Positions 20,699 through 26,847 of a stretch of 46,465 nt of DNA are shown in pieces. Source of the stretch: Pseudomonadota bacterium (GTDB lineage Bacteria > Desulfobacterota > Syntrophorhabdia > Syntrophorhabdales > Syntrophorhabdaceae); the NCBI GenBank assembly GCA_026388275.1, contig JAPLKB010000025.1, forward strand, positions 1-46,465. The letters run 5' to 3'. Each line of letters begins with the position of its first letter. The stretch's first letter is position 1. A program made the position numbers and the translations under genes. The notes below the pieces were generated by a model, which worked only from the letters and a program-made list of their open reading frames with translations, made no database searches and had not been told where the DNA came from.

Positions 20699-20932
20699 AT
20701 ACCCTCCTGTCCTTACTGCAAACCTGTGCATTGTGCCGTAGTTTTAGGTAACAATCCGCAAAGTAGTATCGGGAATTTATTCAAATATATCAGAATAAGA
20801 ATATGGACATGCCGGACAATAACCTGGGATATGCCTTGAAGCAGCCAATTAACATAATTAATACATAAACTTTTCATTGTGGTAAAATAATATGCAAAAG
20901 ACAGGAATGGGTAAAGGGTGCATTTATAAATA

Positions 20933-21060
20933 ATTCCAATCCTAAATCAAGGCGCTATCATCGTTGGCTTCGTCATAAGCTCCTCCGACGTACTATTATA
21001 GTACGCCTACGTCGCCTCTTCCTTGCCGCCTTGATTTCATCCTTTATTTAGAATTGGAAT
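20933..21060. repeat. Palindromic MITE-like repeat, TIR family 1, copy 1
   Basis: The ends are inverted: ATTCCAATCCTAAATCAAGG at the left and TTTAGAATTGGAAT at the right. The core GACGTACTATTATAGTACGC is itself palindromic. The reverse complement aligns along nearly its whole length with 26593-26765 (shared blocks ATCAAGGCGGCAAGG, GACGTAGGCGTAC, GACGAAGCCAACGATGATAG). It codes for nothing and lies in the 409-bp gap after the ATPase operon, which otherwise contains no gene. Confidence 0.8.
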
Positions 21061-21107
21061 AAGATTACAGGAAAATAAATAAATTTTATTTAACCGGAGG
21101 CTAAACT

Positions 21108-24640: not shown

Positions 24641-26116
24641 ATGCTAAAGTCTGTTATGAAACCTGTTACATATTATAATACCAATGATCACAATGACAGA
24701 GCCAACTTTGAAGAAGCGCTCCTGAAAGGCATGGCCTCTAATTATGGCCTGTACATGATCCCGCGAGAGGAGATTCCTCTTGTCTCTCCTGAAATAATAA
24801 GCAGCATGAAGGATATGTCTTATGCCGAAATAGCCTTTGAAGTGTTGAGCCTGTACCTTGCCTCTGAAATACCGGCAGATGCATTAAAGACAATTCTCGA
24901 CGATGCCTACCGGGCTGATAAAATCCCGACCAATGTCCAGCACATTTTTGACAGGACATTTATTATGTGGCTGACACAGGGCCCTACATACTCTTTTAAG
25001 GATTATGCAGCACGCTTTTTCGGAAGGATGCTCAATTATTTCCTCGGTAAAAAGAATTTAAAGAGGGTGGTTGTCGTTGCAACGAGCGGCGATACAGGCG
25101 GTGCAGTGGCTGATGCACTATATGGCCTTGAACGCATTGATAATATTGTGTTTTATCCAAAAGGGTCAATCAGCGACGGTCAGAGAAGGCAGATGACCAC
25201 ACTGGGCTATAACATATATGCTTTTGAAGTGGATGGAGATTTTGATGTGTGTCAGTCCCTGGCAAAGCATATTCTCGGTGATAAAGATTTAGCTCAGGAA
25301 GTTTTTGGAGACTCTGAGAGATTTACCTCTGCAAATTCAATAAGCCTCGGAAGGCTTCTGCCCCAGGCAGTGTATCCCTTTTTTGCATATTCAAGGATTC
25401 CCGAAGATAATGAAGGGTTTGTCGCAAGCGTACCGTCAGGGAATTTCGGGGATATGATGGGAACTGTTGTTGCAAAACAGATGGGGCTTCCTGTAACAAA
25501 GATCATCTGCGGGGTAAACGAGAATACCGAGTTTCCTGATTTCCTTGAAAGCGGTCAATATATAATAAGACCGTCGATAAAAGCGCCCTCCTCTGCCATG
25601 ATAGTGTCGCACCCGAGCAACCTTGCGAGATTAATAGATTTCTACGGGGGACACATGTATGATGAAAGGGACCCCGAAACCGGACAGGTAATAAGGCCTG
25701 GCATCATTGACAGGATGCCGGATATGGATCAAATGAGGAGGGATATATTTTCCATCGGCATAAACAACCCCCAGCACTATGTGACAATGAAGAATGTTTA
25801 TGACAGGCATCACGTTGTTCTTGATCCCCACGGTGCAGTGGGTTGGAGAACGCTTGAGATATTTTTACAGGGCCGGCACGATAAGCCTTCCGTGATTTAC
25901 GAGACAGCAGATCCCGGCAAATTCCCGGATGATGTGAAGGAAGCCATAGGTATAGTGCCGGAACTTCCACCCGGTATGAAGATACAGGCAGGATTGGCAG
26001 AAAGGATTTACAGTATCGAAAACAAACCTGATTCAACACCGCAGGGTATGGGCCTGAGCGACAGTCAGATTGATGAGGCAAAGCATAAAATAAGGGAGAT
26101 ATTTAAGAAAAAATGA
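24641..26116 (+). CDS. thrC: Threonine synthase
   Basis: This 491-residue PLP enzyme matches the long (fungal/gammaproteobacterial-like) threonine synthase class. It has an N-terminal domain from YYNTNDHNDRANFEEALLKG, the PLP-lysine in GPTYSFKDYAARFFGRML, VVVATSGDTGGAVADALYGL (phosphate loop), SGNFGDMMGTVVAKQMGLP and NENTEFPDFLESG. It converts O-phosphohomoserine to threonine. ACAGGAG precedes the ATG. Its TGA overlaps the ATG of the selenoprotein rhodanese by 4 nt, so the two are coupled. Confidence 0.95.
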   Translation: MLKSVMKPVTYYNTNDHNDRANFEEALLKGMASNYGLYMIPREEIPLVSPEIISSMKDMSYAEIAFEVLSLYLASEIPADALKTILDDAYRADKIPTNVQHIFDRTFIMWLTQGPTYSFKDYAARFFGRMLNYFLGKKNLKRVVVVATSGDTGGAVADALYGLERIDNIVFYPKGSISDGQRRQMTTLGYNIYAFEVDGDFDVCQSLAKHILGDKDLAQEVFGDSERFTSANSISLGRLLPQAVYPFFAYSRIPEDNEGFVASVPSGNFGDMMGTVVAKQMGLPVTKIICGVNENTEFPDFLESGQYIIRPSIKAPSSAMIVSHPSNLARLIDFYGGHMYDERDPETGQVIRPGIIDRMPDMDQMRRDIFSIGINNPQHYVTMKNVYDRHHVVLDPHGAVGWRTLEIFLQGRHDKPSVIYETADPGKFPDDVKEAIGIVPELPPGMKIQAGLAERIYSIENKPDSTPQGMGLSDSQIDEAKHKIREIFKKK

Positions 26117-26580
26117 TGAAGAATATTTTTCCATCGCAGATTTTTACGGATCGCCAAAAACACGATTCGAAAGGATTCAGTTTTTTTAAGATTTTCATAT
26201 CGTTGTTTTTTATATTGACGATATTCTTTGTTGCCTCATGTGAATTTACCAATGATTTCAACGAAATAAAAGCGGAAGAGCTGAAAAAGATGATGGATAA
26301 AAAAGTCCCCTTCCTTTTAGTGGATACCAGGAGCGAGTACGAATACAGAGAAGTCCGCATACCGGGAGCAGTCAATATACCCCAGGAACAATTCAGACAT
26401 CTCGATGAACTGCTGCCTAAAGATAAAGCTTTTCCCATTGTGTTTTATTGCAGCGGGTCCAGTTGAAATTTAATAAGCAAAAAGGCTGCGGTCGCAGCCA
26501 AAAAACTCGGATATACCAATATTCAAATATATCTTAAAGGGTTCCCCGACTGGGCAGGCAGGTATCCCTCTGAAAGATAG
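26113..26580 (+). CDS. Rhodanese-like lipoprotein, predicted selenoprotein (Sec at UGA 26464)
   Basis: From ATG 26113 the frame runs 117 codons to TGA (26464-26466), then continues open for 37 more codons to TAG at 26578. Before the TGA: a lipoprotein signal (FILTIFFVASC, lipidated Cys at residue 43) and a rhodanese domain, FLLVDTRSEYEYREVRIPGA and PIVFYCSGSS. After it: NLISKKAAVAAKKLGYTNIQ, IYLKGFPDWAGRYPSE, exactly the end of a rhodanese domain. The UGA occupies the last position of the active-site loop CSGSS-U, where homologues often have Cys. Seventeen nt further on is a hairpin GGCTGC-GGTC-GCAGCC, whose GGUC loop matches the E. coli fdhF SECIS loop. The 155-residue product is predicted to be an envelope sulfur- or redox-active selenoprotein. 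A plain nonsense mutation is the alternative. Confidence 0.8.
26484..26499 (+). promoter_or_regulatory. Bacterial SECIS-like hairpin
   Basis: GGCTGC (26484-26489), loop GGTC (26490-26493) and GCAGCC (26494-26499) form a perfect 6-bp stem. It begins 17 nt after the UGA, and the loop starts 23 nt after it, within the range used by SelB-bound SECIS elements. The G-G-U-C loop equals the SelB-binding loop of E. coli fdhF. Confidence 0.75.
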
Positions 26581-26592
26581 GGTTTTTGTCTT

Positions 26593-26765
26593 ATTCCAAT
26601 TCTAAATCAAGGATGCAATGACTTACCACGCTTCAACTTGCGGGGCAATCAAGGCGGCAAGGGAACACCCGCAAGCGGGTACCCGGACGTAGGCGTACGA
26701 TAGCAGTACGTCGAGGATCTGATGACGAAGCCAACGATGATAGCGCCTTGATTTAAAATTGGAAT
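26593..26765. repeat. Palindromic MITE-like repeat, TIR family 1, copy 2
   Basis: It starts ATTCCAATTCTAAATCAAGG and ends CCTTGATTTAAAATTGGAAT, giving terminal inverted repeats of about 20 bp. It is the inverted counterpart of 20933-21060 with a ~45-bp internal insertion that includes ACACCCGCAAGCGGGT. The core GACGTAGGCGTACGATAGCA, then GTACGTCG, is palindromic. It begins 12 nt after the rhodanese stop. Confidence 0.8.
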
Positions 26766-26847
26766 TACCTGCTTTACTCTCTTTACTGTTACATAGAGAC
26801 CAACGAGACGATTTTTTACGGATTTGCTGCATCAATTTATTCGGCCT

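Follow-up and report, generated by a model that had tools for sequence, protein, structure and literature searches.

Does the single in-frame TGA of a small rhodanese-like gene from a member of the Syntrophorhabdaceae end a short protein, or is it read as selenocysteine (Sec)? The gene lies in contig JAPLKB010000025.1 of assembly GCA_026388275.1, in a stretch of 46,465 nucleotides that was analysed as a whole (the window). The features on which the argument draws are the following, with A1 denoting the homologue alignment described below.

24641..26116, + strand: thrC, threonine synthase, the upstream neighbour, with a 4-nt overlap (identified by its orthologue's Pfam match and a shared cluster)
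26113..26580, + strand: predicted rhodanese selenoprotein gene, single-domain, lipid-anchored by motif, 155 aa, Sec at 118
26179..26241, + strand: hydrophobic signal segment and lipobox VASC (residues 40-43, Cys43 at 26239-26241; helix 24-43 in the model)
26272..26556, + strand: rhodanese domain PF00581 (Pfam match; Z 13-17 against solved rhodanese folds)
26449..26451, + strand: TGC, Cys113 at the catalytic position, first residue of the active-site loop, invariant in A1, directly after strand 109-112 of the model
26464..26466, + strand: in-frame UGA for the predicted Sec118, at position six of the loop, opening helix 118-131
26484..26499, + strand: predicted bacterial SECIS hairpin of 6 bp, GGCTGC-GGTC-GCAGCC, with the GGUC loop at 26490-26493

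Reading frame and predicted fold

The frame opens with ATG at 26113, inside the last four bases of thrC (26113-26116, the overlap first claimed for it), and closes with TAG at 26578-26580. Its lone in-frame TGA, at 26464-26466, is codon 118; 117 codons precede it, and the 37 codons from the TGA to the TAG hold no further stop or frameshift. PF00581 spans the TGA with 71-72 bits (72.1 at best) against a Pfam gathering cut-off of 22.2, which bears out the original prediction of a frame that is rhodanese-like on either side of one TGA. The active-site loop reads VFYC-SGSS-U, and the TGA does fall at its last position, codon 118 being the sixth residue of the loop.

Structure prediction gives an ordinary rhodanese fold (mean pLDDT 86, with most of the rhodanese domain above 94), in which strand 109-112 leads to Cys113, a six-residue loop and a helix from 118, and the model matches solved rhodanese domains with Z up to 17.3. 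Both marks of the rhodanese superfamily are therefore present: PF00581 over its cut-off together with the fold, and a loop-start Cys after the core strand. Because Cys113 follows the strand and residue 118 opens the helix, the Sec would occupy the last residue of the loop and not the position of the catalytic nucleophile. At the N-terminus the VASC lipobox is found as predicted, at residues 40-43. Its Cys is kept in 23 of the 23 A1 rows from the window's order and in none of the three rows of family f78. On the signal segment and lipobox motif, which are the whole basis of the lipoprotein call, we infer that the protein is exported and lipid-anchored.

The UGA codon and its hairpin among homologues

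Homologue searches covered 297 relatives and 395 genomes of the phylum and returned many homologues with exactly one TGA (a scan limited to Cys codons returned Cys relatives only). The loop (I/V)FYC-x-x-x-x-X is kept in all 27 close homologues checked, and in 26 of them X, five residues past the invariant Cys, is a UGA in the same alignment column; the same UGA arrangement occurs in about 25 related genomes. Alignment A1 comprises 26 rows, 23 from the window's order and three of family f78. The 27th close homologue, from Syntrophorhabdus (L034, G031:C90:6144-6512; also L058), carries TGC (Cys) at this position with its hairpin unchanged, likely a fossil SECIS left by a recent Sec-to-Cys change, and its genome still has selB. 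An alignment with UGA or Cys at the Sec column and a conserved hairpin, the pattern proposed at the outset as a check on the Sec assignment, is thus what the homologues give. The same rows bear on a more trivial source of the codon. A TGA is one base away from a Cys codon (TGC or TGT) and might have replaced one through a sequencing or assembly error, but 26 of the 27 close relatives show the same TGA with a conserved hairpin, and since these 26 were assembled separately, such an error is excluded in practice.

Translation beyond the UGA can be judged from the codons that follow it. Between the window and the same-genus genome G001, 28 post-UGA codons show 20 nucleotide changes and seven amino acid changes, where neutral evolution predicts 12.7 (P 0.0008), and this stretch is therefore very probably translated. 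G143 and W147, both past the UGA, are invariant in A1. A reading in which the UGA is a true stop, leaving a truncated 117-aa lipoprotein and a relic frame downstream, agrees with standard ORF calling, which ends at the UGA, and with the accelerated window copy and its inserted codon. It is nonetheless very unlikely, given the 37 codons free of other stops and frameshifts, the selection on the downstream peptide, the two invariant residues, and 26 homologues with UGA at this place and never TAA or TAG. A pseudogene was likewise considered and rejected, on the open frame, the post-UGA selection, the invariant G143 and W147 and the conservation of the UGA.

The perfect stem with a GGTC loop 17 nt after the codon, on which the original prediction leaned, is present at 26484-26499: the stem starts 17 nt and the loop 23 nt past the TGA, with an MFE of -11.7. 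Published limits for bacterial SECIS elements are a loop of 3-9 nt, a stem of 4-16 bp, a spacing of 16-37 nt, a G in the first two loop positions and an MFE of -7.5 or lower (PMC13188914); the window hairpin lies inside all of them and is conserved in relatives. When the TGAs on both strands of the window that have at least 60 open codons before them and at least 25 after are taken as a chance test, 44 qualify, and a GG-loop hairpin at least as stable as -9 kcal/mol follows the rhodanese TGA alone. When the same peptide is re-coded with the codon usage of the window, an equal or better hairpin arises in 2.4% of trials, so the window hairpin by itself is moderate, suggestive evidence. An Rfam scan of the rhodanese gene gave no match near the gathering score.

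Among relatives, synonymous re-coding gene by gene also gives modest p-values (median 0.15 over the UGA forms), and the case for the hairpin therefore rests on its fixed position and on the contrast between Sec and Cys forms. More remote CxxxxX domains, borne by single, tandem or haem-motif-bearing proteins, include Sec as well as Cys forms. A GG-loop hairpin 20-23 nt downstream is found in 41 of 47 UGA domains versus two of 26 Cys domains, one of the two being the Syntrophorhabdus L034; over these 73 CxxxxX domains of the phylum the association has a Fisher p of 1e-11, calculated on rows that are not independent. The tree of the 73 domains requires nine Sec/Cys state changes, at least seven of them on supported branches, and the phylogenetically independent pairs (n = 7) mostly follow the link between Sec and hairpin, with a median p of 0.06-0.25 that is not formally significant. 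The hairpin bases also encode the conserved AAVAA peptide, a confounder that calls for a control; the association over the 73 domains is seen although the peptide coded at the hairpin varies between groups (AAVAA, AGLA, ARKA, ARIA). One stem pair switches from C-G to U-A in nine sequences; it is the one pair that varies freely, since alanine codons make up most of both stem arms, and it supplies most of the covariation count.

The window copy departs from its relatives after the Sec codon. An extra codon stands between the U and the AAVAA helix (UNLISKKAAVAA, versus UAPSVNAAVAA in every A1 relative), which places the hairpin loop at 23 nt and not at 20, and displaces the usual Ser of UxPS. The branch of the window copy is also long (0.32, versus 0.038 for its sister). 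Faster evolution together with the extra codon suggests that this copy may be changing function.

A genome that reads UGA as Sec should carry the machinery, and the original prediction named the sel genes as the first thing to look for. All are found in the organism's own assembly, over their cut-offs: selA (583 bits), selB (366 bits), tRNA-Sec (72 bits) and selD (370 bits). A UGA-containing formate dehydrogenase is there too, in line with the early remark that the catalytic subunit of this enzyme often contains Sec: one formate dehydrogenase, fdhA (864 bits), and selD each contain one in-frame TGA, with hairpins whose loops start with G 17-18 nt downstream. In three UGA-bearing relatives (G004, G005 and G019) selB over the cut-off was not found, possibly because these assemblies are incomplete. 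A side observation concerns selA itself. In this genome (C1:13351-18817; L004, L006, L024) two tandem-rhodanese genes follow selA at a distance of about 2.6 kb, close to a multihaem cytochrome; one of these tandem rhodaneses, a two-domain protein, has a Cys-Cys form of the same loop (CESKNC).

The frame would also stay open if UGA were read as Trp or Cys under a changed genetic code or by a suppressor. The neighbouring thrC, however, ends in TGA, so that TGA is a normal stop in this genome; the set of SelA, SelB, tRNA-Sec and SelD is full; and in homologues the UGA interchanges with Cys and not with Trp, all of which makes such a reading extremely improbable. Genetic code 4 in particular was rejected because thrC stops at TGA, the Sec machinery is complete and the UGA alternates with Cys. 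With the sel genes, the Sec/Cys interchange and the hairpin all in support, we infer that Sec is inserted here: on comparative sequence evidence, the ORF at 26113-26580 very probably encodes a rhodanese selenoprotein with Sec at codon 118.

Gene neighbourhood

The coupling of such a protein to threonine synthase was singled out as unusual in the original prediction. As an arrangement it is real and conserved: thrC lies directly upstream, on the same strand, in all family loci where it was found (16 including the window), the gap between the two genes ranging from -8 to +93 nt. In many family loci the gene is followed by a fur-type regulator, then a znuA-type zinc-uptake operon (ABC ATPase, ABC permease) and then dnaK. 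The window and its sister species (G001) do not have these downstream genes, and of the members examined outside the family none has thrC or the fur/znuA neighbours. Since fur, the zinc-uptake genes and dnaK are frequent neighbours too, the arrangement does not indicate that the protein works with threonine synthesis. A functional thrC link was rejected since, for all the conserved adjacency, the chemistry is unconnected and the members outside the family are without thrC; the association seems to reflect co-transcription and not a common function.

An element of about 180 bp (26586-26767), with a second copy on the minus strand at 20931-21064, lies a few bases past the stop codon of the rhodanese gene. 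It is a multicopy repeat of this genome, with 57 matches on many contigs; some ten copies are near full length (80-95% identical) and dozens are partial. The ends of the element resemble inverted repeats (ATTCCAATT..TAAATCAAGG / CCTTGATTTAAAATTGGAAT), as in a MITE.

Known rhodanese selenoproteins and a possible role for Sec118

Rhodanese-type selenoproteins are indeed listed in surveys, as the original prediction stated, and the literature examined gives no function for them; the deep-Sep paper makes no mention of rhodanese. A 2026 review describes five rhodanese selenoprotein forms, including UxxS, CxU (NF041203) and UxxxxU (TsoB) (PMC13188914). The closest is TsoB. Its model NF045694 matches 26 of 26 A1 rows and is the best NCBIfam match of the window protein; the loop is the same, and the second Sec of TsoB is at the position of Sec118. 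TsoB differs in having Sec at the catalytic position as well, and in being fused to DsbD-like and thioredoxin-like parts in frames of 584 aa and more, whereas the window protein has Cys at the loop start (CxxxxU) and is a 155-aa lipoprotein by motif. Accordingly, it scores 66.7 bits with NF045694, over the rhodanese part only, against a cut-off of 805. TsoB-type proteins of five genomes (L135-L139) have the loop UAGL(A/T)U, with Sec at both ends. NF041203 (CxU, form 3) describes a rhodanese that resembles the window protein in being small and exported and in placing Sec within the active-site loop, but there the Sec comes two residues after the Cys; the window protein, with CxxxxU instead of CxU, reaches 48.3 bits against a cut-off of 115, while a true member in the phylum (L130, loop CTU) scores 125.7 bits. 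Form 1 (UxxS, WP_010941598.1; PMC13188914), compared here by its catalogue description, shares PF00581 with the window protein. Its Sec site is probably the same as Sec118: most relatives read UxPS or UxxS, the window copy UNLIS.

Among solved structures the same fold (Z 13.7-15.8) is seen in GlpE (1gmx), BH2092 (3nhv), CoADR-RHD (3ict) and a persulfide reductase (3nta), none of which is, to our knowledge, a selenoprotein. None of the NCBIfam selenoprotein models scores over its cut-off with the window protein, or with any of the CxxxxU relatives that were scanned singly, and standard gene calling may therefore truncate these genes at the UGA, an annotation gap. It would appear from these sequence comparisons that the window protein belongs to the known rhodanese-like selenoproteins and forms within them a distinct thrC-linked, lipid-anchored CxxxxU subfamily.

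The phylum holds further predicted rhodanese selenoproteins of other architectures. One three-domain rhodanese (L117, G348:C211:48800-50600) has two CxxxxU loops, hence two predicted Sec residues in one protein, and a comparison of 60 bases downstream of the two UGAs shows no difference between them. Five others of about 430-490 aa (L116, L119, L123, L124, L127) are ordered as a CxxxxU domain, a Cys-less domain and a C-terminal ordinary rhodanese; a CxxCH-type N-terminal motif is present in L116, L123 and L124 and is not found in the same form in L119 and L127. At L120 and L121 there are adjoining pairs of two-domain rhodaneses with a CxxxxU loop in each gene, one of these loops reading CLSERUAYG (UxxG), possibly the catalogued form 2.

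What the Sec would do can be sketched as follows. SelB and tRNA-Sec would read codon 118 as Sec, directed by the GGUC hairpin 17 nt downstream. In the usual rhodanese manner, Cys113 would accept sulfane sulfur donated by thiosulfate, polysulfide or a persulfide, and Sec118, at the other end of the loop, would attack the Cys-persulfide, releasing sulfide and closing a selenenylsulfide between Cys113 and Sec118 that a thiol reductase of the DsbD/CcdA/thioredoxin type in the periplasm would re-open. Substrate, selenenylsulfide step and electron donor are conjectural parts of this scheme. By analogy, from the loop position, the Cys-Cys versions and the TsoB fusion, we tentatively suggest that Sec118 is the resolving selenol for the Cys113 persulfide. 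In TsoB the UxxxxU loop shares one protein with a DsbD-like membrane part and a thioredoxin-like domain, and this arrangement suggests that electrons for the pair cross the membrane.

Alternatively, Sec might be inserted and act otherwise, as a primary nucleophile or as a ligand for metal or selenium, in a peroxide reductase, a redox sensor or a metal-trafficking factor. Most selenoproteins are thought to work in redox reactions (PMC9312934), and the fur-znuA-ABC ATPase-ABC permease neighbours in many family genomes hint at metal supply. We consider this rather unlikely: Cys113 is invariant and the fold is that of a plain rhodanese, and the fur/znuA neighbourhood is missing from the window, from G001 and beyond the family.

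For the family, a resolving role would have a definite meaning, which we put forward as a tentative proposal. The thrC-adjacent, lipid-anchored subfamily of the Syntrophorhabdaceae may use a Cys with a resolving Sec in one six-residue loop to reduce sulfane sulfur to sulfide on the periplasmic side, with electrons supplied by a DsbD-type route; TsoB would then be the fused, double-Sec version. The fused relative would in this way hint at the electron source. Natural Sec and Cys versions that differ at one loop residue, together with a relic SECIS and a fused relative, make the benefit of Sec to a rhodanese a testable matter.
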